Shown here: positions 1 to 24,043 of the stretch, piece by piece
How positions within the stretch are numbered: the first letter of the stretch is position 1
Layout: every line of letters starts with the position of its first letter
Virus record (IMG/VR): IMGVR_UViG_3300000255_000144
Location: 1 to 26,781 of that record
DNA: 26,781 bases
Source: a virus
Strand: one strand, 5' to 3'
Position numbers and translations under genes: made by a program
Notes under the pieces: generated by a model
Databases searched by the model: none
The model's input: only the letters and a program-made list of their open reading frames with translations
Told to the model about the DNA's origin: nothing

Positions 1-98
1 GATTGTCATATGTTACAGAGGGGTTAAAGTTTTATGTTCGTGAGTATGATGGGTATGAAGATATTGTAACGGAGGAAGATTTAAAGTTAAAAGCATAA
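1..98 (+). CDS. 3' end of an unidentified gene (partial)
   Basis: An open frame enters from the left edge in phase with base 3 and ends at TAA 96-98. The visible 31 residues are rich in acidic and hydrophobic residues and end in DLKLKA. The other two forward frames stop within the first 42 bases, so this is the only frame that can be coding. Too little remains to name a family. It ends just before the acceptor half of the tmRNA, so the tmRNA may be co-transcribed with it or driven by a promoter inside it. No convincing promoter was seen in these 98 bases. Confidence 0.55.
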   Translation, partial: LSYVTEGLKFYVREYDGYEDIVTEEDLKLKA

Positions 99-100
99 TA

Positions 101-155
101 GTTTGAAGTATATTTTATGTATGTTGGACGTGGGTGCGATTCCCACCTCTTCCAC
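101..155 (+). ncRNA. ssrA: Permuted tmRNA, acceptor piece (T arm and 3' acceptor strand)
   Basis: Bases 130-146 form a T arm: stem GTGGG/CCCAC (130-134 with 142-146) closing the 7-base loop TGCGATT, preceded by GGAC as in tmRNAs. The next seven bases CTCTTCC (147-153) pair fully with GGGGGAG at 433-439, more than 270 bases downstream, as G-C, G-C, G-U, G-U, G-C, A-U, G-C. The third pair is G-U, the alanyl-tRNA synthetase identity element. Upstream, GTATGTT (119-125) pairs with AATGTAC (452-458), and GTATAT (108-113) with GTATAT (465-470), as in helix P2. A154 would be the discriminator; CCA is not encoded. The order acceptor-then-coding is that of a circularly permuted gene giving a two-piece RNA. 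The 5' end is approximate. Confidence 0.85.
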
Positions 156-432
156 ATAAATTGTCTAGTGTAGATGTATAATGCATATATACGGAATGTG
201 TGACACACGGTATACTTAGTAGAATAGATGGAGCGTACGAAAGATGGTGAGGGGGAATTCCCCCAGAGCCAACGGGTTCATTTAACTTAGCACCAAACCA
301 GCGATGATGGGTTCTACAATGTATATATGGACGTATGTGAACACGGGACAACAAACTCCCGGGTATCCTTAGCCGCAAGTGGCGTTCATGAAGTTCTGCA
401 GGACTTTTGGGTTGTGACTAGACAATTTTTGT
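156..432 (+). other. Intervening segment between the two tmRNA pieces
   Basis: This roughly 277-base segment lies between the acceptor 3' end and the coding-piece 5' end, and would be removed by processing. I see no credible protein gene in it. It is rich in local structure: a perfect 14-base palindrome GGGGGAATTCCCCC at 251-264; a stem GTGAAC/GTTCAT (337-342 with 384-389) enclosing CGGGA/TCCCG (344-348 with 357-361) and GCC/GGC (372-374 with 381-383); and GTGTG/CACAC near 199-210. These may guide processing or form a separate structured RNA. No tRNA or known riboswitch was recognised. Confidence 0.7.
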
Positions 433-596
433 GGGGGAGAACAGATTCGACAATGTACTATATTGTATATGGACTATTCATCAAGAAAGATGTAAAAATC
501 AAAAAAATAAATGCAGATGATAATTTTGCGGTTGCAGCTTAGTATATAAGTATGCGGAGTTTGGGGATACTTGGCAACAGAAATCCTCTTATATAT
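433..596 (+). ncRNA. ssrA: Permuted tmRNA, coding piece with tag reading frame
   Basis: The segment opens with the 5' acceptor strand GGGGGAG (433-439), followed by GATTCGAC (444-451), the nearly universal tmRNA 5' signature (E. coli has GGATTCGACGGG). P2 follows at 452-470. A small CATC/GATG stem (479-482 with 489-492) lies where pseudoknot 1 is expected. An A-rich run leads into the tag frame ending GCAGCTTAG at 542. After the tag, TATATAAG (543-550) pairs with CTTATATA (588-595), enclosing G-rich bases that can pair with ATCCT, as in downstream tmRNA pseudoknots. The far 3' boundary is uncertain and may be set by the terminator that follows. Confidence 0.87.
510..542 (+). other. tmRNA proteolysis tag frame, (N)ADDNFAVAA-stop
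   Basis: Codons from AAT 510 or GCA 513 to TAG 540-542 read (N)-A-D-D-N-F-A-V-A-A. Bacterial tags typically end in hydrophobic-A-A (E. coli ...ENYALAA; Caulobacter ...EEFAVAA), which ClpXP recognises. Both the DNF core and the AVAA end resemble the Caulobacter tag, but this tag is shorter. The most likely resume codon is GCA 513, because tags usually begin with alanine at or near the charged residue; AAT 510 cannot be excluded. Confidence 0.85.
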
Positions 597-634
597 ATAA
601 TGTGGGTGTTGGAAAATACCCACATTATGTTTCA
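597..634 (+). terminator. Hairpin terminator after the tmRNA
   Basis: Bases 597-607 pair perfectly with 618-628 (11 bp, including GTGGGT/ACCCAC) around a 10-base loop. A T-rich stretch follows (GTTTCATTTTT). Position and shape fit a rho-independent terminator or the 3' processing hairpin of the coding piece. The U tract is interrupted, so termination may be partial. Confidence 0.7.
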
Positions 635-660
635 TTTTTACAACAAAGAGGAAAAAAAAT

Positions 661-978
661 ATGAAGAAGGTATTAATTTTATTAACTGTATTATTTGCAT
701 TTACAACAACGGTGGCTGTTGCAGATTCATTTTCAATGAAAATGAAGGATGCTGGTTTTCGTTGGACTCAAGATATGGATAACTTAGATAATTTTTGGAG
801 TGGTGATCAAGATACTAATGGTCTACGATTATTCACTACTGCTTATGTTGGTTCAAAATCACATGAAGTTACCATGATGTATAATAGACAACAAATGTCT
901 GGACCTTGGGATTTATTTGAAGGGAATGATCAACATCTTGAAAATGTAGCGGTAGAGTACCGATATAATTTCAATTAA
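661..978 (+). CDS. Small secreted protein with signal peptide
   Basis: The protein has 105 residues. It begins with a classic signal peptide: MKK, a hydrophobic core at residues 4-16, and a likely cleavage AVA-D near residue 21. The mature part of about 84 residues is polar and aromatic, has no cysteine, and ends in alternating aromatic residues (YRYNFN), recalling the last strand of outer-membrane or periplasmic beta proteins. AGAGG lies nine bases before the ATG. It has its own hairpin downstream and follows the tmRNA terminator, so it looks like a small independent unit. No family was recognised; an envelope role (superinfection exclusion or lysis) is only a guess. Confidence 0.8.
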   Translation: MKKVLILLTVLFAFTTTVAVADSFSMKMKDAGFRWTQDMDNLDNFWSGDQDTNGLRLFTTAYVGSKSHEVTMMYNRQQMSGPWDLFEGNDQHLENVAVEYRYNFN

Positions 979-990
979 TATATTTATTAT

Positions 991-1021
991 GAATAATTCC
1001 GCCAATTTGACGGAATTATTC
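991..1021 (+). terminator. Hairpin after the secreted-protein gene
   Basis: Bases 991-1001 pair with 1011-1021 as a perfect 11-bp stem (GAATAATTCCG) with a 9-base loop. No clear U tract follows (TAACC), so it may be a weak terminator, an RNA-stabilising hairpin, or active on the opposite strand. Confidence 0.5.
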
Positions 1022-2215: not shown

Positions 2216-3946
2216 ATGAATTTAGGACATTTTTTAATAGAACAATTAAAGTTATATGGTGCAGGTCATATATTTGGTATACCAGGAGATTACACGTTAA
2301 ATTTTATGCGTGAAATTGAAGAACATTCTGATATGGAATATGTTGGAGTGAGTAGAGAAGATTCTGCTGGATATGCCGCAGATGCATATGGTAGATTACG
2401 TGGTTGTGGTGTGGTATGTGTCACGTATTCAGTTGGTGCTATGAATATTATGAATTCGGTTGCTGGTGCCTATGCGGAAAGGTCACCAGTTGTTATTCTT
2501 GTTGGTAAACCATCATCTGATGATTTATTGGTAAATCCAAATAGACATCACACAATCAATAATGCAAATACACAAAGGGATATATTCAAGAATATAACCA
2601 CTAATACTTATTCGTTAGATTCTGAAGATATGTTTTTTAATATGTCTATGATTCATTTGGCATTGAATAAAATGCGAAAACATTCTAGACCAATTTATAT
2701 TGAATTTTCAAATAAAGATATAGTACGTTCAGTTGATGAATATTTGAAGAAATTTCAAACAGTATATGGGGATGATGTACCATCAAAAATCTTTCCAGCA
2801 TATGTGAAGGATTCTAATAATGTCATTGTTAAGGATACTCCATTTTCTAAAGAATGCAAATCTATAAATTTACCATATGATAATTTGAATAAATTTAAAT
2901 CTGCAAGTAATAGGGTTTTAATTATTGGTCATGAGGTATTTCGTAATTCATTAGAAGATCATATTCTTAATTTTGCAAAGAAGTTTAATATTCCAATATT
3001 TACAACTTTGCTTGGTAAATCCACCATTTCAGAGTTTAGTCGAAATTCTATTGGGTGTGTTTCTGGTTTATTTTCTGATTCGTCAGTTATTGATGAGATA
3101 AAAAAATCAGACTGTATTGTTACTATTGGTATGGTTAATACGGATATTGAATCATTTGATTTTGCTGCTGATATTTCTATTAATATGGATGATGGTATCA
3201 TGTTTGAAAATAAACATGTTAAAACATTAAAATCTACAACTTCTAGTTTTTATGAGATGGTTCGTTCATTTTTGGTATATTTAGATGATTCTGAGATTCA
3301 ATCTGATAATTCTATAAGTAGATGGACTAATATTGTAGATACCAGTAAATTGTCATTTAAGTCACATGACATGACGAATCCTACTAAATTGGAATATGTA
3401 TTTGATACTATAGGTGAATTGATAAGTGAGGATCATATAGTAATATCAGATATAGGTGAATCGTTATTTGGTATTATTGATGTTCCTATGAGGAAAGGAC
3501 AATTTTTATGTATGGCATATTATACATCTATGTCATTTTCGGTTCCTGCCGCAGTTGGTGTTAAGTATGCAAAACCACATAAAAGACCAATAGTCATTGT
3601 TGGTGATGGTGCCTTTCAAATGACGGGTTCTGAATTTTCATCCCACATTCGTAATGAGTTGAATACTGTTATTCTTATACTTAATAATAGGGGATATTCT
3701 ACTGAAAAGGCAATTATGGAAGGTGAGTTCAATGATATTCATAATTGGAGATATGATAAAATAACAGATTTAATGGATGGTGGTGTTGGGATGTATATAT
3801 CAGATTCTTCTCAATTCAGGAATGCATTAGAAACTGCATTAGATGATGGGTCACAATCTTATGTATTAAATATAGAGATTGCCCCAGATGATCAATCTAT
3901 TGCAATGAAAAATATAATTGAAACATTATGTAAAGATAATTTATGA
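2216..3946 (+). CDS. ThDP-dependent 2-oxo-acid decarboxylase (pyruvate/indolepyruvate decarboxylase family)
   Basis: This 576-residue protein is full length for the family. The N-terminal pyrimidine-binding domain has FGIPGDYTLNF (20-30) and the cofactor-activating Glu48 within SREDSAGYAADAYGR. The double histidine at 111-112 (NRHHT) is the pyruvate decarboxylase signature and argues against acetolactate synthase. A central domain covers about residues 190-350. The C-terminal pyrophosphate domain has the ThDP/Mg motif from GDG (463-465) to NN (490-491), followed by Glu497 in GYSTE, equivalent to the catalytic glutamate of NNxGYTIE. Expected reaction: 2-oxo acid to aldehyde plus CO2. The substrate cannot be read from sequence. 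AAAGGTGG precedes the ATG, and its stop overlaps the prs start, so the two are translationally coupled. Confidence 0.88.
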   Translation: MNLGHFLIEQLKLYGAGHIFGIPGDYTLNFMREIEEHSDMEYVGVSREDSAGYAADAYGRLRGCGVVCVTYSVGAMNIMNSVAGAYAERSPVVILVGKPSSDDLLVNPNRHHTINNANTQRDIFKNITTNTYSLDSEDMFFNMSMIHLALNKMRKHSRPIYIEFSNKDIVRSVDEYLKKFQTVYGDDVPSKIFPAYVKDSNNVIVKDTPFSKECKSINLPYDNLNKFKSASNRVLIIGHEVFRNSLEDHILNFAKKFNIPIFTTLLGKSTISEFSRNSIGCVSGLFSDSSVIDEIKKSDCIVTIGMVNTDIESFDFAADISINMDDGIMFENKHVKTLKSTTSSFYEMVRSFLVYLDDSEIQSDNSISRWTNIVDTSKLSFKSHDMTNPTKLEYVFDTIGELISEDHIVISDIGESLFGIIDVPMRKGQFLCMAYYTSMSFSVPAAVGVKYAKPHKRPIVIVGDGAFQMTGSEFSSHIRNELNTVILILNNRGYSTEKAIMEGEFNDIHNWRYDKITDLMDGGVGMYISDSSQFRNALETALDDGSQSYVLNIEIAPDDQSIAMKNIIETLCKDNL

Positions 3947-4896
3947 AAAAATCTATAATAATTTCAACACGGTCTAATACAAAGTTGGCCAAAGAAGTTG
4001 CTGAGAATCTTGGTATGAGATTGACCAAGGTGAAAATTAGAGATTTTCCTGATTCAGAGATTTATGTAGAGATTAAGGAGAACATTCGGTTAGAGGAAGT
4101 TTTTATTATAGCTGGATTTAAATCTGGGGTAGGTTCTAATAGAAACAATGATATAATGGAATTGATGTTACTTATTGATGCAGTTAGACGTTCAAATCCA
4201 TCTGTTATTAATGTTATATTCCCATATTATGCATATGCTAGACAAGATAGACGTACTAATAGAAGTCCTATATCTGGTAAGGTGTTTGCTAATATGCTCT
4301 GTTATTCTGGTATAAATTCAGTAATCTGTATGGATTTACATTCTTTACAAACACAAGCATTTTTTAATAACAATGTTGTTTGTGAACATATATCAGCTTT
4401 AAAAACTATGAGGGATTCTATTGTTGCCGCAATTGTTCCTTCTTATTGGGATGTTGTGGTTGCTGCTGATGTGGGTGGTTCTGGTCGTGCAAGGTATTTT
4501 GCAAAGGAATTAAATTTACCAATCGCAATTATTGATAAACGTCGACCAGAGCCGGGTATGTCTGAAGTTATGAATGTTATTGGTGATGTTGAAGGTAAAA
4601 AATGTGTTATAGTAGATGATATGATTGATGGTGGGGGAACATTGGTTGGTGCTGCAGAGGCATTAAAGTTGTCTGGATCGGTGAGGGTTGATTGTGTTGC
4701 AGTTCATGGTGTTTTTTCTGGAAAGTCTATTGAACGAATAGAACAGTCTGATATCGGGACTTTGTATATTACAGATTCCATAGAACATACTTCTGAGTTG
4801 ACATCAAAGATAAAGGTAATAAGTGTAAAGGACTTGGTATCGGAGACGATACGAAGATTTCGTAATGGTGAATCATTAAAGGCGTTAGTATCATGA
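3943..4896 (+). CDS. prs: Ribose-phosphate pyrophosphokinase (PRPP synthetase)
   Basis: This 317-residue protein matches bacterial PRPP synthetases (about 315) end to end. It converts ribose 5-phosphate and ATP to PRPP and AMP, feeding purine, pyrimidine and NAD synthesis. Visible motifs: FPDSEIYVEI (35-44), the ATP loop FPYYAYARQDRRT (93-105), DLHS (131-134), ADVGGSGRA near 176-183, and the PRPP-binding loop VIVDDMIDGGGT (222-233). It overlaps the decarboxylase by ATGA and the next small gene by ATGA. Phage prs genes are known, for example with nicotinamide phosphoribosyltransferase in vibriophage KVP40. No such partner lies in this window, but pyrD, a purN-like gene and pyrophosphatase do. 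Confidence 0.95.
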   Translation: MKKSIIISTRSNTKLAKEVAENLGMRLTKVKIRDFPDSEIYVEIKENIRLEEVFIIAGFKSGVGSNRNNDIMELMLLIDAVRRSNPSVINVIFPYYAYARQDRRTNRSPISGKVFANMLCYSGINSVICMDLHSLQTQAFFNNNVVCEHISALKTMRDSIVAAIVPSYWDVVVAADVGGSGRARYFAKELNLPIAIIDKRRPEPGMSEVMNVIGDVEGKKCVIVDDMIDGGGTLVGAAEALKLSGSVRVDCVAVHGVFSGKSIERIEQSDIGTLYITDSIEHTSELTSKIKVISVKDLVSETIRRFRNGESLKALVS

Positions 4897-4997
4897 AAGA
4901 GAAATTTAAATTTTTAGGGTTATTATTTGCTATTTTTATTTGTGCAAATGCAATATTAATAGGTATTGGGTATATTATAAATGTCAGTTTAAATTAA
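4893..4997 (+). CDS. 34-residue single-span membrane protein
   Basis: The start ATG overlaps the prs stop as ATGA, the arrangement used repeatedly in this genome, and the frame stays open to TAA 4995-4997. The peptide is MKEKFKF followed by one hydrophobic segment (residues 8-30) and a short polar tail. It ends just before a strong promoter. No family was recognised. The short length makes it uncertain, but the coupling and clean membrane-span composition support it. Confidence 0.5.
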   Translation: MKEKFKFLGLLFAIFICANAILIGIGYIINVSLN

Positions 4998-5005
4998 AAT
5001 ATGAC

Positions 5006-5034
5006 TTGACATTTGGTTAAAAATCTGTTATAAT
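5006..5034 (+). promoter_or_regulatory. Consensus sigma-70 promoter
   Basis: TTGACA (5006-5011), exactly 17 bases, then TATAAT (5029-5034): a perfect match to the housekeeping consensus at both boxes. The start would be near 5041, about 20 bases before the ATG at 5062 with AGGAGA between. It probably drives the run from 5062 to about 9921. Confidence 0.9.
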
Positions 5035-5061
5035 GGTGTTAAATATTAAAAGGAGAGTTTT

Positions 5062-5202
5062 ATGAGTAAAAGAGCTAAACCATTTAGAAGTGATCAAAAG
5101 AATGCCCGTGGGAAATCATTTGGTAAACAAAGTGGGCATGGGTCATATACAAAGAAACGACATCCTACTTCTAAATGGGTATTAAATGGGGCATTGACAT
5201 GA
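5062..5202 (+). CDS. Small basic protein, 46 residues
   Basis: First gene after a consensus promoter, with an excellent ribosome binding site (AGGAGAG, seven bases before ATG). The product is strongly basic (about 12 Lys/Arg/His clustered in the first 35 residues) with glycine and serine, and no hydrophobic core. Such early-transcribed basic phage peptides often bind nucleic acids or host polymerase/ribosome components, but that is inference. Its stop overlaps the next start as ATGA. Confidence 0.72.
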   Translation: MSKRAKPFRSDQKNARGKSFGKQSGHGSYTKKRHPTSKWVLNGALT

Positions 5203-5492
5203 GAGAAAGTGAAACAATGGAATTGCCATATTCTGAAGGATATGATGAAACTAGAGTTTTATCAGAGATAAGAGATTATATCGGATCTACTTATGTGTCA
5301 CATTACACTAATGATAATAATGATATACAAGTACTTGATATATATCGTGCTAGGGGAACTATGACTAATACGTGTATTGATAATTCATTGAAATATTTAA
5401 TGAGGTATGGTAAGAAGAATGGTTCTAATAGAGATGATTTGCTAAAGGCTGTTCATTATATAATATTGGCATTGGGGAATGAATCGCATTAG
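5199..5492 (+). CDS. DUF3310-like small phage protein
   Basis: The 97-residue form starts at ATG 5199, which overlaps the previous stop; an in-frame ATG at 5175 would add eight residues but lies deep in the preceding gene. The C-terminal half carries CIDNSLKYLMRYGKKNG and DDLLKAVHYIILALG, the pattern of DUF3310/SaV-like proteins (N-x-x-KY-x-x-R-x-G-K-x-x, then LxKAxxYI). These are common in phages next to nucleotide-metabolism genes, and their biochemical role is unsettled. Its position upstream of ppa and pyrD fits that association. Confidence 0.75.
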   Translation: MRESETMELPYSEGYDETRVLSEIRDYIGSTYVSHYTNDNNDIQVLDIYRARGTMTNTCIDNSLKYLMRYGKKNGSNRDDLLKAVHYIILALGNESH

Positions 5493-5501
5493 GAGTATAT
5501 T

Positions 5502-6143
5502 ATGGAATTTGGGGATTATTTTTTACCGTCATTAAGTAGTTCTTTATTTATTATTGTTAGAGAAGGTATAGAGATATTATTACTTTTGATGATAATATTA
5601 AAGTTGACGGAATATGAACATAAGAGATATGTATATTTGGGTTCATTTTTAGGTATACTGTCATCAATCTTGGTTGCTTATTTATTTGTTGATATATTTG
5701 AACATTCTGATTTAGAGTTATTTGAGGGTTATGTACAGGTTATAACTGGGTTGATGTTATTATATATTTCTGTTTGGTGTGTTAATGCAAATAAACATAT
5801 TAACGAACATTTACAATATAATAATTCCATGGCATTTGTCTTAGTATCGTTTTTTACTATATTGAGAGAAGGTGTAGAAGTTGTGTTATTTTATTTCTCA
5901 TTATATACATCAGTATTATCAGATGTTATTGGTATGTTATTTGGATTTCTGATTGGTATTGGTATATTAGTATATATTGGAACACGTATTAACAATTTTA
6001 ATACGAAATATATATTTAAAGCTTCATCATATGTATTTCCGATATTTGCTTTGTATTTTTTATCTTCTGGAATACACGAATTTGCAGAATACTATGAGGT
6101 TGAATGGTTACATAACATTCTTATAATATATCATGACTCCTAA
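5502..6143 (+). CDS. FTR1-family iron permease-like membrane protein
   Basis: This 213-residue, very hydrophobic protein has about six or seven spans. It carries two REGxE motifs inside membrane segments, REGIE (20-24) and REGVE (122-126), the iron-binding REXXE signature of FTR1 high-affinity iron permeases, and a C-terminal SSGIHEFAEYY resembling the conserved GxHExxE element. It is shorter than typical FTR1/EfeU (about 270-280), with short loops. The family moves ferric iron across the cytoplasmic membrane, usually with an oxidase partner or EfeO/EfeB; none is seen here. AGGAG precedes the ATG. Confidence 0.85.
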   Translation: MEFGDYFLPSLSSSLFIIVREGIEILLLLMIILKLTEYEHKRYVYLGSFLGILSSILVAYLFVDIFEHSDLELFEGYVQVITGLMLLYISVWCVNANKHINEHLQYNNSMAFVLVSFFTILREGVEVVLFYFSLYTSVLSDVIGMLFGFLIGIGILVYIGTRINNFNTKYIFKASSYVFPIFALYFLSSGIHEFAEYYEVEWLHNILIIYHDS

Positions 6144-6151
6144 ATATAGAT

Positions 6152-6316
6152 ATGGAAGATATAATATGGATATTTTTATTAGGAATATGTGCTGGGTTTT
6201 CATTCAGGGCAGGGTTTAGACATGGTTGGTATTTAGCTGTAAATGTCACATTACATGAATTGTATAAAATGGGCATTATTAATGAAAAGGTATTAAATGA
6301 ATATACAAAAAAATGA
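6152..6316 (+). CDS. 54-residue membrane-anchored protein
   Basis: Starts at ATG 6152, eight bases after the permease stop, and ends with the ATGA overlap to the pyrophosphatase gene. It has one hydrophobic segment (residues 4-17), then a basic patch (FRAGFRHGWY) and a polar tail. No family was recognised. The coupling to ppa and the uninterrupted frame support it. It could be an accessory subunit of the permease, but nothing shows this. Confidence 0.62.
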   Translation: MEDIIWIFLLGICAGFSFRAGFRHGWYLAVNVTLHELYKMGIINEKVLNEYTKK

Positions 6317-6798
6317 ATATTGACGTATTGATTGAAATGTCTATGGGAACTTCACATATTAAATATGAAGTTGATCATAAAACGGGTGTGCTTAGATTTG
6401 ATAGATTTTTACACACATCAATGCACTATCCTTGCAATTATGGTTGTCTGCCAAATACAATAGGTGGTGACAATGATGCTGTTGATGTTTTGGTAATAAC
6501 ACCATATCCACTAATACCTAATTGCAAAGTATTATGTAATGTCATTGGGGTTCTCCATATGGTAGATGAGTCGGGTGACGATCCTAAAATATTGGCAGTA
6601 CCTGTTGATGAGGTATATTCTGATTGGTATGATATTATAGATGTTCCGATTGAACAGTTGGAGAGTATATATCATTTCTTTGAACATTATAAGGATTTAG
6701 ATGAAAACAAGTGGGCAAAAGTTAATGGGTGGGGTGATAATTCAGAGGCTAAGAGAGTAATTGATGATGGTATTTATAGATATAATAACAGATGTTAA
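6313..6798 (+). CDS. ppa: Inorganic pyrophosphatase, family I
   Basis: This 161-residue protein is slightly shorter than E. coli PPase (about 176). It hydrolyses pyrophosphate to phosphate, pulling DNA, RNA and nucleotide synthesis forward. Seen: IKYEVDHKTG (15-24, matching NKYEVDK), MHYPCNYGCLPNT (37-49), and the metal-binding DNDAVDVLV (53-61), keeping the three aspartates of DxDPxD but with Ala for Pro. MVDESGDDPKILAVP and WAKVNGWGD also match family blocks. It is coupled by ATGA to the small gene upstream. Together with prs and pyrD it fits a nucleotide-supply programme. Confidence 0.93.
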   Translation: MNIDVLIEMSMGTSHIKYEVDHKTGVLRFDRFLHTSMHYPCNYGCLPNTIGGDNDAVDVLVITPYPLIPNCKVLCNVIGVLHMVDESGDDPKILAVPVDEVYSDWYDIIDVPIEQLESIYHFFEHYKDLDENKWAKVNGWGDNSEAKRVIDDGIYRYNNRC

Positions 6799-6807
6799 GG
6801 AATAATT

Positions 6808-7056
6808 ATGTTTAAATTTGGTAAAGATAAAGAACCAAGTGAAGAAGAATTGCAAGTGATTCAAGATAAGCTTGAAGTTGATTTTTTTAATACACATGCA
6901 GTTAAAGTGGGTATGTCGTGTTTGGCATTTAAGGATTGGGATAGTAATAGTGGAAGTGGTGGTGTTATTAAACGAATACTTGATGAAAATAATGTGTTGA
7001 TTGAATTTGAGAAAACTAATGGGGTTTATCATATTGATAATTTGAAAAGAGGTTAG
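6808..7056 (+). CDS. 82-residue protein with a possible SH3-like fold
   Basis: AAGGAATA precedes the ATG. The N-terminal third is charged and helical (KDKEPSEEELQVIQDKLEV). The rest alternates strand-like segments with glycines (VGMSCLAFKDW, GGVIKRI, NVLIEF, VYHIDNLKRG), which looks like a small KOW/SH3-type barrel. Its closing strand (YHIDNLKRG) is similar in layout to that of the protein at 26451 (WHFENLELL). No annotated family was recognised. Confidence 0.72.
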   Translation: MFKFGKDKEPSEEELQVIQDKLEVDFFNTHAVKVGMSCLAFKDWDSNSGSGGVIKRILDENNVLIEFEKTNGVYHIDNLKRG

Positions 7057-7058
7057 TC

Positions 7059-7409
7059 ATGAAAAAACGAAATAAGGTGTTATTAACGGTAGGTACGTTA
7101 GTTGGTGTATATGGTGCATATGATATTAATTGGAATTCTTTAGTTGGAGAGTATATTCAACGTGGAGTTGACGTTACAAATAATGTAAAACAAACTGAAA
7201 TAGATATGTCTGCTATTGAAGCAAAACTCAAGAATGATATTAAGAATGTTAAGGACATAACGACACAAAGATTGGGCGAATATACATTTACTGGTGAATT
7301 TGGTTGTGGCGCTAACCACCATATAGAGGGTGGATGTGGTGGAAATCATATGCCAGAAGAGAAATATGAAGAATTGCCGTCAGAGCATAATCCAGGAAAT
7401 AAATTATAA
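7059..7409 (+). CDS. Membrane-anchored protein with Cys/His-containing tail
   Basis: This 116-residue protein begins MKKRNK plus a hydrophobic segment (8-21), a signal anchor or uncleaved signal peptide with no lipobox. The middle (about 35-75) is polar and probably helical. The C-terminal region FGCGANHHIEGGCGGNH concentrates two Cys and three His with glycines, a candidate metal-binding patch, and ends in an acidic tail. It starts two bases after the preceding stop. No family was recognised; being near the iron permease makes a metal role tempting but unproven. Confidence 0.68.
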   Translation: MKKRNKVLLTVGTLVGVYGAYDINWNSLVGEYIQRGVDVTNNVKQTEIDMSAIEAKLKNDIKNVKDITTQRLGEYTFTGEFGCGANHHIEGGCGGNHMPEEKYEELPSEHNPGNKL

Positions 7410-7418
7410 AGGAATATT

Positions 7419-8585
7419 ATGAAGTATAGAATGCAAAGGATTGTTTATAAGTGGTTATTACGACCTATATTGTTTAAATTGTGTCCTGAAACGGCACACG
7501 ATGTAGTTAAAAATATTATAGGATGGGTTCAACGTATCCCATATAGTAAAAAGTTATTGAGATATTTATATAGGTATGATAATACTATGTTATCTCAAGG
7601 TGTAAATGGTGTTCATTATAGTAATCCATTGTTGATTTCTGCTGGATTTGATAAGTATGGGGTATTGCCACCTGTCATACGTGATTTAGGATTTTCTGGT
7701 ATTGAACTTGGTTCATTTTCAAAAGAACCACATGATGGTAATCCACCGGTTAGATTATGGAGAGCGGTTAAGTCACAATCTATTAATGTTTGGTATGGGT
7801 TGAATAATTCTGGTTCATTACATGTGGCAGACCGTGTTGCCCCTGATTGGAAACATGCCGATGGTGTTTGTGGTGTATCAGTTTCTGCAACAAACGGTGT
7901 ATCTGATAAGGATGATGTTATAGATGATTTATTAACTTCATTTAAACGATTGTCTCCATATGGAGATTATACTACTATTAATCTTAGTTGTCCTAATTTG
8001 GGGGTATCTAATCCCTTTTTTGATATGGAAAATTTAACAGAATTGTTAGTAAAGGTTAAGAGTGTAAGAGAATTGATGGGGTTGAATGAATATCCTGTAT
8101 ATTGTAAGATTGGTCCAGATCATACAGATGAAGAAATCTGTCAGATGATAGATGTTATGCATACGTATGGTATTAATGGTATTTTGACTTGTAATCTTAC
8201 AGTAAAACGTGAATTGATACCCGATGATGATAAGGTTACATATGTCATACATGGTGGTAAGATAGAAAAACGAGTTATGCCAGATGACCGTGGTGGTTTA
8301 AGTGGACATATATTACGTCCTATGACTAATCATATAATTAAGGTATGTGGACAACATGTTAAAGATAATGAATATAAATTTATAGTTATAGGTATAGGTG
8401 GGTGTGATACTGCTGAAGATGCTTATTTGAAAATAAGAAGTGGTGCGACATTAATACATTTGATTACTGGTATGATATTTCACGGACCTCAAATTTCAGC
8501 TGAAATTAATATAGGACTTGTAGAATTACTTAGACGTGATGGTTATAATAATATATCTGAAGCAATTGGCGTGGATTTACGTTGA
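7419..8585 (+). CDS. pyrD: Dihydroorotate dehydrogenase, class 2-like
   Basis: This 388-residue FMN enzyme of pyrimidine synthesis oxidises dihydroorotate to orotate. The architecture is class 2: an N-terminal helical extension with FKLCPETAHDVV (19-30, membrane/quinone side), then AGFDK (75-79), GIELGSF, GNPPVRLWR (107-115), the active-site loop INLSCPN (187-193), YCKIGPD, NLTVKR, GGLSG and a phosphate-binding IGIGG. Unusually, the loop has Cys191 where class 2 enzymes normally use Ser as catalytic base (SSPN); Cys is typical of class 1. NVWYGLNN also departs from the usual NRxGxxN. GGAAT precedes the ATG. Fed by PRPP from prs, it would help make UMP. Confidence 0.92.
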   Translation: MKYRMQRIVYKWLLRPILFKLCPETAHDVVKNIIGWVQRIPYSKKLLRYLYRYDNTMLSQGVNGVHYSNPLLISAGFDKYGVLPPVIRDLGFSGIELGSFSKEPHDGNPPVRLWRAVKSQSINVWYGLNNSGSLHVADRVAPDWKHADGVCGVSVSATNGVSDKDDVIDDLLTSFKRLSPYGDYTTINLSCPNLGVSNPFFDMENLTELLVKVKSVRELMGLNEYPVYCKIGPDHTDEEICQMIDVMHTYGINGILTCNLTVKRELIPDDDKVTYVIHGGKIEKRVMPDDRGGLSGHILRPMTNHIIKVCGQHVKDNEYKFIVIGIGGCDTAEDAYLKIRSGATLIHLITGMIFHGPQISAEINIGLVELLRRDGYNNISEAIGVDLR

Positions 8586-13281: not shown

Positions 13282-15462
13282 ATGTTAAACACTTCCCTAC
13301 TTTCCAAATTAATGGCAAGAGAAGATTTAGAAGTTATTGAGGGTAATTTTAGAACTGCTTCATTTGACCCTACTAATCGTATTCTTAGATTGCCATTATT
13401 GAAAGAAGAACATAAAGATGCTGCCACTCTGTTCATTGGACATGAGGTTGGTCATGCATTATATACACCTAGTATTTTCAGTCATGATGAAAGTATAAAT
13501 AAGTTATTACCTGATATTGAAGATATACCACATTCTATTTTAAATATTGTTGAAGATGTTCGTATTGAACGTCTTGTTCGTGAATTTTATCCTGGATTAA
13601 TTAATGATTTCCTAAAAGGATATCGTCATTTAGTTGCAGATAATTTCTTTGGTATTAAAGATGTTGATGTTGATACTTTGGGATTTCTTGATAGATTGAA
13701 TTTGAAGGCTAAGTTATCAAAAACTATTGATATTAAGTTTTCATTTAAAGAATCTGTTATGATGTCTAAAGTATTTCAAATTGATACTTGGGATGATACA
13801 GTTAGAGTTTCACGTGAATTGATGGAGTTTCTTGACGAACAACAGGAACAGCAGCAGCAACAGCAGCAACAATCAAGTGATGGTTCTGGTGATTCAGAAG
13901 AATCTGAAGAATCTGAAGATTCTTCAGGATTGTCTGAAAGTTTAAATTCTGATGTTGGTGATACTGAAGCTTCAGAAGATGGTGATGACTCATTAGAATC
14001 TGGTTCTTCTGATACTGATGCTGATGCTAATGCTACTGATGATAATAGTGTTGAAGAAGATAATGTTTCTTCCTCTTCTGGTGGTGGACTTTCTGATACT
14101 GGTGATACTACTGGTGAAGATCCATATCATTCTGTTACTGATGATGCATTTAGAAAGAATGAAAATAAGATGATTAATGAGGGTGATGGTACTTCATATC
14201 TTAAATTCACAAAGGAACAATTGGTTAATGAGTTTTTATATACTGATGAAGAGGTGGAGAGAAGTTATACTGAATTCTTAGAAATGAAGAATAATCAACC
14301 CGCTATGCAAATTTATCATGATGAGTTCATTAATGTAAGATATAAAGAGTTTATTCGTGATGTTAAACCCGCAGTAAATGCTATGGTTCAACAATTTGAA
14401 CTTCGTAAATCTGCAATGGAATCAAGAAAGGCAAGACAGTCTACAAGTGGTTCAATTGATGTGGATAAATTGTGGCAATATAAGTTAGACGATCATATTT
14501 TCAAGTCAATCATGTCATTTCCTGATGCTAAGAATCATGGATTATTGATGTATGTTGATTTCTCTAGTTCTATGTGGGGTCGTTTATATGAAACCGTAAA
14601 ACAGTCTGTTATTTTGATTATGTTTGCGAAACGTGTTGGTATTCCATATGAATTATATACATTTACTACTAATGGTAAAAAATGGAAAGATAATGGCAAA
14701 AGAAACATGTTTGGTAAAGGTGAAGATTATGGTAAATATGACCTTGCCAATTATGCATTAGGAATGATTAAAATTGCCGATTCTAGTTGGACAACGAGTA
14801 AACAGAACAAAATGACTCAACGAGTTATGTTTTCTTCTGAAACATTGACAGGTGGTAATGCTTGGATGAAAGAGAAACTGTTTTCAATGGGTGGAACACC
14901 ATTAATTGAAACTGCTGCTTACTCATTAATTCTTGCGGATGATTTTGTTAAGAAACATAATACTGAAAAGATGAATGTGGTTTTCCTGACTGATGGTCAG
15001 GCACAAGATATCAGAACTAAAAGTTTGGGTTATGGTGATCAAAAGGTTGTAGTTTTTGATGTTGAAGGTTATGGTAGACTTGAGGCGAACGTGGGTGGTA
15101 TTTATTCATATTATTCAAGAACTAAATTATATCAAAAGGCGATGTTTGATGCATTACGAAAACGATATAATGTAATTGGTTTTTTCTTAACATCATATCG
15201 TAAATTGGTTAATCCAAAAGTGGGATATATTGTTCATGATAAAATTGATTCGGATAATGAGTTTTATGACCGTTACATTGTGGTTCATGATAAACGGTTA
15301 CAGGCAGAAGATGATGAATTTGTAACAGTTGCTGATGATGATCCTTTGTTTACAACAGACCGTAAGAGAATGAATACAATCAAACGTGATTTTAAAAAGT
15401 TCCAAAAGAACAAGAAATCTAACAAGTTGATTGCACAAGAATTTGCAAGAATGGTTGCTTAA
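13282..15462 (+). CDS. CobT-like VWA protein with N-terminal HExxH domain
   Basis: This 726-residue protein. An N-terminal domain has FIGHEVGHALYTP with HEVGH at 54-58 and NIVEDVRIE near 88-96, giving a plausible third zinc ligand (Glu91). A long low-complexity segment follows (about 189-290): Glu/Gln run, then Ser/Asp/Glu-rich, as in CobT. The C-terminal von Willebrand A domain has the MIDAS motif DFSSS at 426-430, GGTPLIETA and FLTDGQAQD. CobT with CobS forms the cobalt chelatase ATPase pair; many T4-like phages carry similar pairs without cobalamin synthesis, and the role there is unknown, perhaps protein remodelling. The partner ATPase lies at 25102. Confidence 0.88.
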   Translation: MLNTSLLSKLMAREDLEVIEGNFRTASFDPTNRILRLPLLKEEHKDAATLFIGHEVGHALYTPSIFSHDESINKLLPDIEDIPHSILNIVEDVRIERLVREFYPGLINDFLKGYRHLVADNFFGIKDVDVDTLGFLDRLNLKAKLSKTIDIKFSFKESVMMSKVFQIDTWDDTVRVSRELMEFLDEQQEQQQQQQQQSSDGSGDSEESEESEDSSGLSESLNSDVGDTEASEDGDDSLESGSSDTDADANATDDNSVEEDNVSSSSGGGLSDTGDTTGEDPYHSVTDDAFRKNENKMINEGDGTSYLKFTKEQLVNEFLYTDEEVERSYTEFLEMKNNQPAMQIYHDEFINVRYKEFIRDVKPAVNAMVQQFELRKSAMESRKARQSTSGSIDVDKLWQYKLDDHIFKSIMSFPDAKNHGLLMYVDFSSSMWGRLYETVKQSVILIMFAKRVGIPYELYTFTTNGKKWKDNGKRNMFGKGEDYGKYDLANYALGMIKIADSSWTTSKQNKMTQRVMFSSETLTGGNAWMKEKLFSMGGTPLIETAAYSLILADDFVKKHNTEKMNVVFLTDGQAQDIRTKSLGYGDQKVVVFDVEGYGRLEANVGGIYSYYSRTKLYQKAMFDALRKRYNVIGFFLTSYRKLVNPKVGYIVHDKIDSDNEFYDRYIVVHDKRLQAEDDEFVTVADDDPLFTTDRKRMNTIKRDFKKFQKNKKSNKLIAQEFARMVA

Positions 15463-15463
15463 T

Positions 15464-15703
15464 ATGAAAACAAAGATACATGTAAATCAACATGTAATTA
15501 AACGTAATGATAAAACTGGGTCACGTGACCCAGTTTTAACTTGTAAGACATATAAAGATAATAAATATGCTCATGAGGTTGATGTATTGGGACCCTGTAG
15601 AGTAATATATCGTCCGGACAATCCTTTGCCATGTGGGGCAAAGGTATGGATTGAAACTGAATCGGGGGTAACAATATATGAAAAAAGAAATTTGGATAGA
15701 TGA
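15464..15703 (+). CDS. Conserved small phage-type protein with internal palindrome
   Basis: The 79-residue form starts at ATG 15464, just after the VWA stop; longer in-frame starts lie inside that gene. It has KIHVNQHVIKRN, then GPCRVIYRPDNPLPCGAKVWIET, a compact beta-rich pattern with two cysteines that looks like a conserved phage protein, function unknown. No good ribosome binding site is visible, so translation may be coupled to the VWA gene. Codons 17-25 contain a 28-bp palindrome. The stop overlaps the next gene's GAGGAGG. Confidence 0.68.
   Translation: MKTKIHVNQHVIKRNDKTGSRDPVLTCKTYKDNKYAHEVDVLGPCRVIYRPDNPLPCGAKVWIETESGVTIYEKRNLDR
15511..15538 (+). repeat. 28-bp perfect palindrome inside a coding region; possible terminator
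   Basis: Bases 15511-15524 are the exact reverse complement of 15525-15538, with CACGTG at the centre and ACTGGGTCAC arms, flanked by AAAA and TTTT so that either strand would yield a stem followed by U residues. It lies 49 bases after the VWA stop. It could be a bidirectional-type terminator or attenuator, or a binding site for a dimeric protein. Confidence 0.7.
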
Positions 15704-16269: not shown

Positions 16270-18393
16270 ATGATGAATGAATATGGTATGAAATTATTCC
16301 AAAAGATATTACCAAAGATATCAAATACTGAAAGAGAGGCTTTAGATGCCGGTACAGTATGGTGGGAATCTGAGTTATTTGGTGGTAGACCAAACTGGGA
16401 TATACTATTAAATACAGAACAAACTAAATTAACACAAGAAGAACACGATTTCATTAATTCTGAAGTTGATACTGTTTGTGAAATGGTGTCTGATTGGGAA
16501 GTTAATGTTATACATAAAGATTTACCAGTTGATGTGTGGAATTATTTAAAAGATAATGGTTTTTTTGCACTTAATATCAAGAAAGAATATGGTGGTTTGG
16601 AATTTTCAGCATATGCACAATCGTGTATCATATCAATTTTAGCATCAAGAAGTATATCATTAGCAATTACTACTATGGTTCCAAATTCTTTGGGTCCTGG
16701 TGAATTACTGTATGAGTTTGGCACACAAGAACAAAAAGATAAATGGTTACCTACATTATCATCAGGTAAAGATATACCGGCATTTGCATTAACAGGACCA
16801 TATTCTGGTTCAGATGCTGCGGCGATGGAAGATTATGGTGTTGTTGAATATGGGGAATATGACGGTGAAAAGGTATTAGGTATTAGATTAAATTGGGAAA
16901 AACGATATATCACACTTGGACCAGTATCTACATTACTTGGTGTTGCGTGTCATATTGTGGATCCTGATGAGTTATTGAAAGAATCTGAGCATTCGCCTCC
17001 TGTTGAGGGTATAAGTTTAGTATTAGTTCCAACTGATACTAAGGGTGTTCGTATAGGTCGCAGACATTACCCTGCCAGACAAGCATTTATGAATGGACCA
17101 AATTATGGTAAAGATGTATTTTTACCATTGAATCATGTTATAGGTGGAATTGATGGGGTAGGAAAGGGTTGGAGAATGTTAATGGCTTGTCTTGCGGCTG
17201 GTAGGGCAATATCATTACCATCATTATCTATGGCTGGTATCAAACATACATTAAAAGTTACTACTGCATACTCTAAAATACGAAAACAATTTAAAATCCC
17301 AATTTCTAAGATGGAGGGTATTGAAGAACCATTGTCTAGGATAATTGGACAAGCATATGTTGTAGAGTCTGCATGTAATCTCACTACTACTGCAATAGTA
17401 AATGGTGAAAAACCATCTGTTATTTCTGCCATGTTGAAATATCAATGTACTGAAAGGATGCGACAATGTATTATTGATGGTATGGACATTTTGGCTGGAA
17501 AGGGTATATCTGATGGTCCTAATAATTTATTATTGAATTATTATATAACACAACCTATTGCTAATACTGTTGAGGGTGCGAATATATTAACGAGATCTCT
17601 AATTGTATTTTCTCAAGGATCTTTACGGTGTCATCCATTTATAAAAGATGAAGTAACTTCTGCTGAATGTGGTGATGCGATTGCATTTAATAAGGCGTTA
17701 ATGGGTCATCTTAAATATACTATTGGTAATATATTTGGGTCATTATATCATAATATTACTGGTGGTATGTTTATATCTAAACCAAAAGACGCATCATGTG
17801 AAATTGGTAAGTATTATAAACGTATTGAATTGGAATCAAAGAACTTTGCATTGTTATCTGATATAAGTATATCGGTGTTGGGTGCTGATCTTAAGAAACG
17901 ACAAAGAATAACTGGTAGATTTGCAGATGCATTTTCAGAGTTGTATATGACATCTGCGGTATTAAAACGTTACGAAGATACTGATGATATGGATAAGAAG
18001 AATGATATATTATATGTTACATGGGGTGCTGAGTCTGGATTATATAATATACAGAAATCGTTTGAGGACATTTTAGACAATTATCCTTCAAAGTTCATTG
18101 GGTTTATATTAAGACGTTTGATATTTCCATTTGGTAGAAGATATAAGGGTCCATCAGATAAGTTGAATAGTAGAATGGTGAAGTCGGTGGTCAATGTTCC
18201 TAATTCAATTAAATCTGCATTAGGATTTGATGCAAGGTCTAGGTTGACAGATAAAACTTTTACATCATCTAATACAAAGGATGCATTAAATATTTTAGAA
18301 AGGGCATATGAGTCTAATCTGAAAGGCGAATTAGATGGAATTTTAGAACATGAAGCAATTATGGTAGATGATTTTGATAAAGATTTGAGGTGA
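16270..18393 (+). CDS. fadE: FadE-like acyl-CoA dehydrogenase
   Basis: This 707-residue protein resembles FadE/YafH (about 814 in E. coli), lacking FadE's N-terminal membrane region. FALTGPYSGSDAA near 172-184 is the FAD/substrate signature (LTxPxxGSDA). GGIDGVGKGWRMLMACLAAGR precedes the C-terminal flavin helices. NTVEGANILTRSLIVFSQG contains the block with the likely catalytic base Glu435, and RCHPF follows as in FadE; about 250 further residues correspond to the FadE-specific C-terminal domain. It oxidises acyl-CoA to trans-2-enoyl-CoA in beta-oxidation, normally passing electrons to an ETF. AGAGG lies before ATG 16270 (16273 also possible). No other beta-oxidation gene is in the window. 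All recognised motifs are intact, so it looks functional. Confidence 0.92.
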   Translation: MMNEYGMKLFQKILPKISNTEREALDAGTVWWESELFGGRPNWDILLNTEQTKLTQEEHDFINSEVDTVCEMVSDWEVNVIHKDLPVDVWNYLKDNGFFALNIKKEYGGLEFSAYAQSCIISILASRSISLAITTMVPNSLGPGELLYEFGTQEQKDKWLPTLSSGKDIPAFALTGPYSGSDAAAMEDYGVVEYGEYDGEKVLGIRLNWEKRYITLGPVSTLLGVACHIVDPDELLKESEHSPPVEGISLVLVPTDTKGVRIGRRHYPARQAFMNGPNYGKDVFLPLNHVIGGIDGVGKGWRMLMACLAAGRAISLPSLSMAGIKHTLKVTTAYSKIRKQFKIPISKMEGIEEPLSRIIGQAYVVESACNLTTTAIVNGEKPSVISAMLKYQCTERMRQCIIDGMDILAGKGISDGPNNLLLNYYITQPIANTVEGANILTRSLIVFSQGSLRCHPFIKDEVTSAECGDAIAFNKALMGHLKYTIGNIFGSLYHNITGGMFISKPKDASCEIGKYYKRIELESKNFALLSDISISVLGADLKKRQRITGRFADAFSELYMTSAVLKRYEDTDDMDKKNDILYVTWGAESGLYNIQKSFEDILDNYPSKFIGFILRRLIFPFGRRYKGPSDKLNSRMVKSVVNVPNSIKSALGFDARSRLTDKTFTSSNTKDALNILERAYESNLKGELDGILEHEAIMVDDFDKDLR

Positions 18394-18397
18394 TATT

Positions 18398-19045
18398 ATG
18401 AAGACACCAATTATTAGTTTTTTGGCGTCAGATGGTGGTACTGCGGCTAGGGATGTTATAGGAGCAATTAATTCATGGAGAATTGTAGCTGAAGTTGGTG
18501 TTGTTATATGTAATAATAAAGATGCTCCTATAGTTCAATGGTGTCATGATAATGGTATTAATGTTTCTATAATATCTGGTAAAACTAATCTACATGACGA
18601 AGATAATGCTATTTTTAATAAATTAAAATCAGTTGCAACTGATCTGGTAGTGTTGTCTGGATACAGGAAACATGTTAATAATATAGTATTGAATGGGTAT
18701 GAAAATAGAATATTAAACATCCATCCATCATTATTGCCTAAACATGGTAATATGTTTGGTGATGATATATATAAATCAGTCTTAGAGTCTAATGATAAGG
18801 TTACAGGAGTTACTGTACATATTGTTACTGATGAATATGATTCTGGACCGATATTGAAACAGAATTTAGTTTTAGTTAGAGATAATGATGATGTGCAATC
18901 GTTAGGTGATGCTTGTCGTGCTACTGAATCTGAATTGTATATAGGGGTTATTAATGAAATTCTTCCTAGATTGATGGAAGTTGAATCAGTGAGGACTAAA
19001 TATGAAAATTGGATTAATCAAAGAAATAAAGGAAAACGAACATAG
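18398..19045 (+). CDS. purN: PurN-like formyltransferase
   Basis: This 215-residue protein matches glycinamide ribonucleotide transformylase (E. coli PurN 212) in length and core. RILNIHPSLLPKHG carries Asn107 and His109, GVTVHIVTDEYDSGPI carries Asp148: the catalytic Asn-His-Asp triad and 10-formyl-THF site. The N-terminal phosphate loop is ASDGGTAARDVI instead of SGNGSNLQ. The expected reaction is GAR plus 10-formyl-THF to FGAR in purine synthesis, using PRPP from prs upstream in the pathway; another formyltransferase substrate is possible given the altered loop. It starts four bases after the acyl-CoA dehydrogenase stop and overlaps alanine dehydrogenase by 44 bases. Confidence 0.85.
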   Translation: MKTPIISFLASDGGTAARDVIGAINSWRIVAEVGVVICNNKDAPIVQWCHDNGINVSIISGKTNLHDEDNAIFNKLKSVATDLVVLSGYRKHVNNIVLNGYENRILNIHPSLLPKHGNMFGDDIYKSVLESNDKVTGVTVHIVTDEYDSGPILKQNLVLVRDNDDVQSLGDACRATESELYIGVINEILPRLMEVESVRTKYENWINQRNKGKRT

Positions 19046-20111
19046 GGTAGCAATTACCCCAAATGGTGTGCGTGAATTGGTTGATAGAGGTCACTCTGTA
19101 TGTGTAACATTTGAAGCTGGGGTTGGTTCTGGTTATTCGGATGATGATTACATATCATCCGGTGCGACAATATGCCACGACTTTTATGCATGGGATTCGG
19201 ATCTTGTGGTTAAAGTTAAAGAACCTCAAGTGGAAGAATACAAATATTTTAATGGGCAAATATTATTTACTTATCTTCATCTTGCGGGTGTAGATAAAGA
19301 ACTGACACTTAAATTATTATCCACCAATACTACTGCCATAGCATATGAATCAATAACAGATAATTTTGGTAATTTACCGTTGTTGTCACCTATGTCTGCT
19401 ATTGCTGGTAATATGGCGGTTACTATTGGTAGTTATTATCTTCAGTATACAGATAAGTCAATGTTTTTTGATGGGTCTGGTGTCCAACTGGGAAAAATCA
19501 ATGGTGTTAATTCTGGTAATGTGGTAGTTGTTGGTGATGGTGTTGTGGGTAGACATGCGGCTGAGATGGCAAATGGGATGGGTGCTAATGTTATTATTTT
19601 AGGGTTGGAAACCGATTATCGTTGGGAGTATTTGAGTAGAGGTCATATGAATACTTCTATTGAATATAAGTGTTCCACTTCATGGAATTTGGAGCCTGCT
19701 GTTAAAGATGCTGATTTAGTTATTGGTGCAGTTTCAATACCAGGAAAGAAATCTCCTATTGTTGTTACTGAAGATATGGTAAAAAGTATGAGGAAAGGTT
19801 CAGTGGTGGTTGATGTGTCTATTGACCAAGGTGGTTGCATTGAAACGTCACATATTAGGAATCATCAGAACCCTGTATTTATGCACCATGGGGTTATTCA
19901 TTATTGTGTGTCTAATATGCCTGGTGCATATCCTAAAAGTGCTACTAACATACTTACTAAGGCGACATTACCATATATAGCTGTTTTGGCTGATATGGGT
20001 CTTGATAACGTGGATCCTAATTTCACAAATGGTATATATACACATAATGGTAGAATCACTAATTTAATGGTTGCTGAATCATTAGAACTTATGGAGTATT
20101 ATGAGGAATAA
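19002..20111 (+). CDS. ald: Alanine dehydrogenase
   Basis: This 369-residue protein has the length of the family (about 370). It interconverts L-alanine and NAD with pyruvate, ammonia and NADH. Seen: MKIGLIKEIKENEHRVAITP (1-20) with Arg15, VKVKEP with Lys73, YLHLA with His93, the NAD loop GDGVVGRHAAEMA (178-190), VDVSIDQGGCIET (270-282) with the catalytic aspartate, and CVSNMPGAYP with Asn. Start ATG 19002 lies inside the preceding gene but has AGGA before it and matches the universal family N-terminus, so the 44-base overlap is real. Direction in infection is unknown: pyruvate/NADH supply or ammonia assimilation. Confidence 0.94.
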   Translation: MKIGLIKEIKENEHRVAITPNGVRELVDRGHSVCVTFEAGVGSGYSDDDYISSGATICHDFYAWDSDLVVKVKEPQVEEYKYFNGQILFTYLHLAGVDKELTLKLLSTNTTAIAYESITDNFGNLPLLSPMSAIAGNMAVTIGSYYLQYTDKSMFFDGSGVQLGKINGVNSGNVVVVGDGVVGRHAAEMANGMGANVIILGLETDYRWEYLSRGHMNTSIEYKCSTSWNLEPAVKDADLVIGAVSIPGKKSPIVVTEDMVKSMRKGSVVVDVSIDQGGCIETSHIRNHQNPVFMHHGVIHYCVSNMPGAYPKSATNILTKATLPYIAVLADMGLDNVDPNFTNGIYTHNGRITNLMVAESLELMEYYEE

Positions 20112-22486: not shown

Positions 22487-22870
22487 ATGGCATATATAAG
22501 TGCTGAAGAAGTTAGAGAGATTCGTAAAGAGTTAAAGAAAGAATTCCCAAAGTATAAATTTTCTGTTCGTAAACGACAACATGCCGTATCTGTTAATATA
22601 TTGAAGTCTGATATTGACTTTCGTTCTGAATTCCGTGATCCTACTGAGAAATATGAAGGAGTTAATCAATACTTTATTGATAAACATTGGTCAAAGAAAC
22701 CCGCAAAGGTTCTGAATAAAATTCTAGAAATCATTAAGACTGCACCTGCCAATGCAGAGAATGGAGAAGCTTGGTTTGATGAGTCTGACATTATGACTGA
22801 CTATTTTCATACTGCATTTTATATTGATTTGCAGATAGGAACTTGGGAAAAACCATACGAGTTAATTTAA
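22487..22870 (+). CDS. Conserved phage protein (LPD29-like), 127 residues
   Basis: SAEEVREIRKELKKEFPKYKFSVRKR at the N-terminus resembles the LPD29 'large polyvalent protein associated' domain and small proteins known from many large phages, including the C-terminal pattern DESDIMTDYFHTAFYIDLQIGTWEKPY. Function is unknown. FRDPTEKYEGVNQYF in the middle is similar to a segment of the protein at 20572. It stands alone between two promoters, typical of single-gene early cassettes. Confidence 0.8.
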   Translation: MAYISAEEVREIRKELKKEFPKYKFSVRKRQHAVSVNILKSDIDFRSEFRDPTEKYEGVNQYFIDKHWSKKPAKVLNKILEIIKTAPANAENGEAWFDESDIMTDYFHTAFYIDLQIGTWEKPYELI

Positions 22871-23939: not shown

Positions 23940-23958
23940 AAATAAATGAAAATAAAGC

Positions 23959-23987
23959 TTGACTTTCTGGCCATAGTATGAGATAAT
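23959..23987 (+). promoter_or_regulatory. Promoter of the shared phage type
   Basis: TTGACT (23959-23964), 17 bases ending ATAGTATGA, GATAAT (23982-23987), preceded by AAATAAATGAAAATAAAGC. The leader AGTCTGTTGAGTTGATAAGG matches that of the promoter at 11599 rather than the GTTGGGG type. Confidence 0.86.
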
Positions 23988-24043
23988 ATAGTCTGTTGAG
24001 TTGATAAGGTTGTTTGGAAAAATACTACTAAATAAGGATTAAA

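Follow-up and report, generated by a model that had tools for sequence, protein, structure and literature searches.

The window analyzed here, the whole 26,781-nucleotide stretch (positions 1–26,781) of the 26,794-base IMG/VR virus contig IMGVR_UViG_3300000255_000144, carries a permuted (two-piece) tmRNA gene in a phage genome, and the segment separating the two pieces, an unusual location, holds an RNA that is supported by covariation and belongs to no known family. This segment (154–432) fell within the coordinates of a first-pass annotation of the same DNA, which left it unnamed; it is a conserved structured RNA. We think it probable that an independent phage RNA is housed in the excised tmRNA segment, is released at tmRNA maturation, and acts by itself. 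The coordinates of all features are collected in Table 1.

A permuted tmRNA gene in a marine phage

The first-pass annotation, which worked from the letters alone, proposed a circularly permuted tmRNA and suggested searches with permuted Rfam models and ARAGORN. The proposal is borne out by the Rfam family tmRNA_permuted (RF04321), which matches positions 97–542 on the plus strand above its cut-off (89.9 bits, E 2.4e-16; cut-off 47), and by the features themselves: the T arm, the acceptor strand, and full pairing between 147–153 and 433–439 with a G-U third pair (G435-U151) can all be read from the sequence, and the P2 helix, GATTCGAC, and a tag ending in FAVAA lie at the positions claimed for them. 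The fourth acceptor pair (G436-U150) is also G-U. The alpha_tmRNA model (RF01849) is matched along its entire length (model positions 1–355 of 355) across 60–591 at 47.5 bits, just below its cut-off of 50, a shortfall that the long insert probably explains. ARAGORN called no tmRNA in the window, and the tmRNA of a relative (L126) was likewise missed. The gene is closest to the alphaproteobacterial type. The CCA end is absent from the DNA, which has ACA at 154–156, and an open frame entering from the left edge of the window stops at 98, the start of the tmRNA match.

Although the presence of a permuted phage tmRNA stands, the novelty attached to it does not, given that 53 of the 133 unique phage tmRNAs in the counts given in PMC9004378 are two-piece (402 of 18,146 phage genomes there have a tmRNA). 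The phage two-piece tmRNA as such is already known, and that part of the locus is ordinary. RF04321 also matches phages HTVC008M, Mosig, and Melnitz, which like the source of the window are related marine phages; the permuted tmRNAs of RF04321 and RF01849, including these three, share with the window the gene order, acceptor, T arm, P2, and tag. However, the intervening sequence of the window is 279 nt long and contains a conserved RNA, whereas the RF04321 matches in HTVC008M and Mosig span only 210–215 nt in all.

The source of the window is a marine phage related to the T4-like Kyanoviridae. Matches to its CobS protein include Kyanoviridae phages, among others, and a T4-type Gp23 capsid gene is present in one of nine records searched (relative G002, 96.8 kb). 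An SmpB gene was not found in any of eight phage records of this group, which could be incomplete; any ribosome rescue during infection would therefore rely on the SmpB of the host. By Pfam, window regions 3943–8585 and 16270–20111 hold genes for PRPP synthetase, an FTR1-type iron permease, dihydroorotate dehydrogenase, acyl-CoA dehydrogenase, a formyltransferase, and alanine dehydrogenase, metabolic functions in a phage.

Table 1. Features of the permuted tmRNA locus and of the RNA in its intervening sequence (window coordinates).
Feature	Position	Strand	Basis or detail
tmRNA 3′ piece, encoded first	97–153	+	RF04321 match and sequence
P2 helix, GTATGTT with AATGTAC	119–125 with 452–458	+	7 pairs, 2 of them G-U
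T arm	130–146	+	stem GTGGG 130–134 / CCCAC 142–146
Acceptor 3′ strand, CTCTTCC	147–153	+	read from sequence
Intervening sequence, 279 nt, conserved structured RNA without an Rfam family	154–432	+	alignment, fold, relatives
Helix 1, terminal stem, extends the acceptor stem	154–169 with 417–432	+	one U-U mismatch, 157/429
Helix 2, hairpin	176–192 (176–180/188–192)	+	1 pair changed on both sides
Helix 3, hairpin	198–208 (198–201/205–208)	+	weakest-supported; 91.7% of cells paired, 0 both-side changes
Helices 4–9, long branched arm (model R1)	210–326	+	both-side changes in 4, 6, 8; none in 5, 7, 9
Tip hairpin of long arm, GGGGG-AATT-CCCCC	251–264	+	within the arm of helices 4–9
Helices 10–13, second arm (model R2)	329–396	+	both-side changes in 11, 12; none in 10, 13
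Second-arm hairpin, CGGGA-CAACAAAC-TCCCG	344–361	+	within helices 10–13
Helix 14, hairpin	399–416 (399–405/410–416)	+	invariant
tmRNA 5′ piece (acceptor strand, GATTCGAC, P2 strand, tag, 3′ domain)	433–591	+	sequence, RF04321, RF01849
Acceptor 5′ strand, GGGGGAG	433–439	+	read from sequence
GATTCGAC	444–451	+	read from sequence, tmRNA 5′ piece
Tag reading frame ADDNFAVAA and TAG	513–542	+	GCA513 to TAG542; sequence and RF04321
Terminator-like hairpin 3′ of the tmRNA	595–630	+	consensus scan only

Fold of the intervening RNA

The fold of the insert RNA is shown by covariation. Our alignment (A3) contains six distinct sequences (the window, L109, L123, L126, L176, and a partial L118), and a fold of 14 helices and 83 pairs was obtained with RNAalifold from five sequences, all within the six later counted; in the five, 10 of the 83 pairs have changes on both sides. 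Across the six rows, 99.1% of 440 cells are paired, a percentage that is biased towards the fold because five of these sequences were used to build it, and the four unpaired cells are found in L176 (three) and L118 (one). More weight attaches to the both-side changes, which affect 10 pairs and 13 cells, compared with shuffled means of 3.2 and 3.4, and neither value is reached in 500 shuffles. Similarly, the covariation score is 0.129 versus 0.080 when shuffled (0 of 500), and slid controls have 34–49% of cells paired and 0–2 both-side-changed pairs. The number of further pair types shows no excess (19 versus 18.1 shuffled, a value reached by 163 of 500 shuffles). Seven of the ten both-side changes originate in L176 alone, two in L126 and L176, and one in the window and L123. 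They fall in helices 1, 2, 4, 6, 8, 11, and 12, including three of the 15 pairs of helix 1, all from L176; the other seven of the 14 helices (3, 5, 7, 9, 10, 13, and 14) have none. Helix 14 never varies, and covariation is therefore silent on it either way.

The 5′ strand of the terminal stem reads ACAUAAAUUGUCUAGU in the tmRNA form and AGGGAAAAUGUUUAGU in L176, and the partner strands match in both, with a single U-U exception in the tmRNA form only. Folding energies lie only slightly below those of shuffled sequences (z −1.97, −2.09, and −1.97, with 3, 6, and 4 of 200 shuffles folding equally well), and the single-sequence minimum-energy folds disagree in the interior of the insert. The G+C content of 170–416 is 45.7% versus 32.5% for the whole window, a level reached by 0.2% of windows of the same size. 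The longest reading frame in the window insert is 22 aa, to be compared with the small frames in other phage tmRNA inserts described below.

At the Rfam cut-offs, tmRNA_permuted is the sole family matched over 154–432; at E ≤ 10 in window 1–1000, PhrS (414–530) is the only model apart from those for tmRNA that touches the insert, with 15 bits versus a cut-off of 37. Known RNA classes (introns, riboswitches, ribozymes, GOLLD, and ROOL) were considered for the insert and gave no meaningful Rfam match at E ≤ 10. The insert thus adds a covariation-supported phage RNA outside all Rfam families. GOLLD and ROOL, as presented in PMC12286853, are also large structured phage RNAs of unassigned function that are often located near tRNA genes, and the GOLLD linker sometimes holds tRNAs; however, many GOLLD RNAs exceed 800 nt, whereas the insert RNA is approximately 280 nt and has no Rfam match to either. 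The group I introns of tmRNA genes, in the account of PMC11915505, resemble the insert in being structured RNAs of similar size within a tmRNA gene, but they sit in the T-loop, whereas the insert occupies a segment that is discarded anyway and has no group I match.

Relatives, a free-standing copy, and a model of release

The insert RNA occurs in at least nine other records, seven times in the same tmRNA and also in L118 and L176, with one copy per record in each of the nine relative records. The inserts of L031, L122, L124, and L125 are identical to that of the window, and those of L109, L123, and L126 are 97%, 98%, and 92% identical to it. RF04321 matches in all five relatives on which it was run (L109, L122, L123, L124, and L126). 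The L118 contig breaks off 137 nt into the insert, which follows a T arm and an acceptor strand; RF04321 does not match this cut contig, and it is because the T arm and acceptor strand are present that its insert looks to be sitting in a tmRNA cut by the contig end. The tmRNA part and CobS lie at opposite ends of this 7.9-kb contig. Further pattern scans of viral contigs, including one for long intervening sequences, revealed no holder of the insert RNA beyond the nine records, and a BLAST search with the RNA as query, covering the window plus 193 loci, gave a next best match of E 0.008 over 39 nt (L178). Two genome-contig scans gave 0 and 3 matches, the three having the short pattern only, and BLAST against phages and plasmids gave only a 29-base match (E 0.4) in two records of one phage. 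Models R1 and R2 found no new member over 134 of 212 sources, and R1, run without a positive control, found none over 15 whole records. Among the matches listed in open-access PMC papers, the matching passages describe no counterpart of the insert RNA in tmRNA intervening segments.

The insert RNA also occurs outside a tmRNA gene, in one record: the free-standing copy is known from the 10.4-kb L176 only. This copy (8034–8313, minus strand) comprises the whole RNA and has a perfect 16-bp terminal stem, the outer bases of which differ from the tmRNA form; RF04321 has no match in the locus, and a tmRNA was not detected. The RNA starts inside the stop codon of a 72-aa ORF that is a relative of window 15431–15703. 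Given that R1 and R2 gave no second copy over the window (one R2 match at 19027–19101; 15.7 bits, E 1.3), the site after the corresponding window ORF is without the insert RNA. The L176 copy argues that the insert RNA has value apart from the tmRNA. Just downstream of it, L176 7936–8001 is 75% identical to window 23940–24005 and contains a promoter-like site, TTGACG-17-TATAAT.

The insert RNA is conserved above the genes shared with the same relatives. Between the window and L176, the RNA is 82% identical over 274 nt versus 65–75% for other shared stretches (65–72% for coding), and between the window and L118 it is 86% identical over 137 nt versus 68.6% for the sole shared gene in that search. 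CobS protein identity is 57% between the window and L176, 59% between the window and L118, and 69% between L118 and L176; same-strand ORFs common to L176 and the window have 30–65% protein identity. A passive spacer retained through recent shared descent would be consistent with the close similarity of three of the six sequences (the window, L109, and L123 are 96–98% alike, and L126 is 90–93% like these) and with flanks that are nearly invariant too: in L126, L123, and L109, positions 1–96 and the tmRNA pieces have 0–3% mismatch, so the zero mismatches in 306–432 are weak evidence by themselves. Nevertheless, the covariation excess (10 both-side-changed pairs versus 3.2 shuffled), conservation across three lineages with CobS only 57–69% identical, and the contrast between RNA and gene identity make such a spacer very improbable.

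Gene neighborhoods differ among the window, L118, and L176, and the fold is compact and self-closed, as could be the case for a mobile ribozyme or intron-like element that is able to self-cut or splice and settles in harmless places. We consider this quite unlikely: group I, group II, and self-cleaving families are unlisted at E ≤ 10 in window 1–1000, and Intron_gpI is also unlisted at that threshold in L176 7800–8500, where the only two weak Rfam matches (14.3 and 13.8 bits) fall outside the RNA. Moreover, no ORF is interrupted by the RNA in L176, and window 22487–22870, a relative of one L176 neighbor, matches only PHROGs of unknown function.

We instead prefer an independent RNA freed from the tmRNA precursor, for which we infer that the locus is transcribed and cleaved and that the RNA is released and acts in trans. 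According to the relevant text of PMC11915505, tRNA-processing enzymes cut the transcripts of permuted tmRNA genes into two pieces. Here, a single transcript would carry the tmRNA pieces and the inner RNA, whose terminal stem continues the acceptor stem as one unbroken helix (147–169 with 417–439). Cleavage ahead of G433 would fall to RNase P; at the other end, a 3′ tRNA-processing nuclease would act near A154, and CCA would then be added. With no encoded CCA, this addition is required, which would suit an endonuclease cut after A154. The two tmRNA pieces would stay together by pairing, and because the ends of the insert are paired onto the acceptor stem, the processing cuts would free a closed inner RNA of approximately 280 nt, its two ends secured by its terminal stem. 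Once free, this RNA would work on its own during infection, and we favor a trans-acting RNA that binds a host or phage protein or RNA over a catalyst. The presence of the insert RNA alone in a related phage suggests that one gene makes two RNAs.

Intervening sequences of other phage tmRNAs

Of 194 sources (the window and L001–L193, which include three loci from bacterial genomes), 88 were found by a pattern script to have permuted tmRNA-like genes, 88 in total, with RF04321 checked on only some of the 88; on ten long-insert loci, RF04321 matches nine and does not match L172. The 71 distinct intervening sequences, among them the long gap of L172 that fails RF04321, are 8–282 nt (median 72), with 17 of at least 100 nt and 9 of at least 200 nt, a length distribution that is not unbiased given that one scan selected long inserts and L172 fails the model. 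An acceptor-extending stem is found in 44 of the 64 intervening sequences of at least 26 nt of phage permuted tmRNAs (shuffled, 1%), so the stem of the window is not special by itself. A terminal stem that continues the acceptor stem, as is thus common, fits an insert that acts only in cis, holding the precursor ends or timing tmRNA maturation before it is degraded. However, great length is dispensable, as 54 of the 71 distinct intervening sequences fall below 100 nt, and the same RNA is present in L176 without a detected tmRNA. We regard an exclusively cis role as unlikely and retain the released, independently acting RNA as our preferred reading.

Seven loci (L045, L060, L078, L081, L106, L156, and L162) have a frame of 34–73 aa in the intervening sequence of an RF04321-verified tmRNA; a purine-rich stretch precedes its start, which lies 13–18 nt inside the insert. 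Four of these loci (L045, L060, L156, and L162) were submitted to ARAGORN, which reports a permuted tmRNA in each. Over 28 codons, the L045 and L060 frames have 14 synonymous and 6 non-synonymous differences, as protein selection predicts. PHROGs yielded no clear match for the seven frames (best E 0.032), and two of the seven gave no match when searched against phages by tblastn. L045 and L060 encode related hydrophobic peptides, and the intervening sequence of L165, L167, and L175 is that of L162. L170 has a tRNA-Asn gene (6697–6772) in the segment between the pieces of its cyano-type permuted tmRNA. In Melnitz (MZ577097; L215 1572–1748), an unannotated frame of 54 aa, or 58 aa if counted from a TTG farther upstream, lies partly in the intervening sequence and extends into the tmRNA 5′ piece. 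The tmRNA intervening sequences with a tRNA-Ala or a repetitive element mentioned in PMC11915505 likewise have extra sequence in the excised segment; their cargo is a tRNA or a repeat, whereas that of the window is an RNA of no named family that is also free-standing.

We posit, as an idea to which we give even chances, that permuted phage tmRNA genes use their excised segment as a cargo bay for a second product. Since ordinary tRNA-processing enzymes would excise the segment, phages could load it with a second product, a structured RNA here and small proteins or a tRNA elsewhere, and a single promoter with a single set of host nucleases would yield the rescue RNA and its passenger together. 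If this is true, an otherwise discarded part of permuted tmRNA genes gains a use, and phages gain a reason to favor the split tmRNA form. The idea is open to testing in Melnitz, described in PMC9004378 as a phage isolate with a cultured host, given the frame in its intervening sequence.

A glutamine riboswitch in the insert, in parallel to Melnitz, was considered and rejected: the Melnitz riboswitch (46398–46446) lies after the tmRNA match (46013–46345), and the parallel also fails in Mosig, where the riboswitch is approximately 19 kb from the tmRNA. By eye, the short intervening sequences of L001, L004, L017, L066, L093, and L097 have a common motif, ACnAnCCGA...AGCAAACAC.
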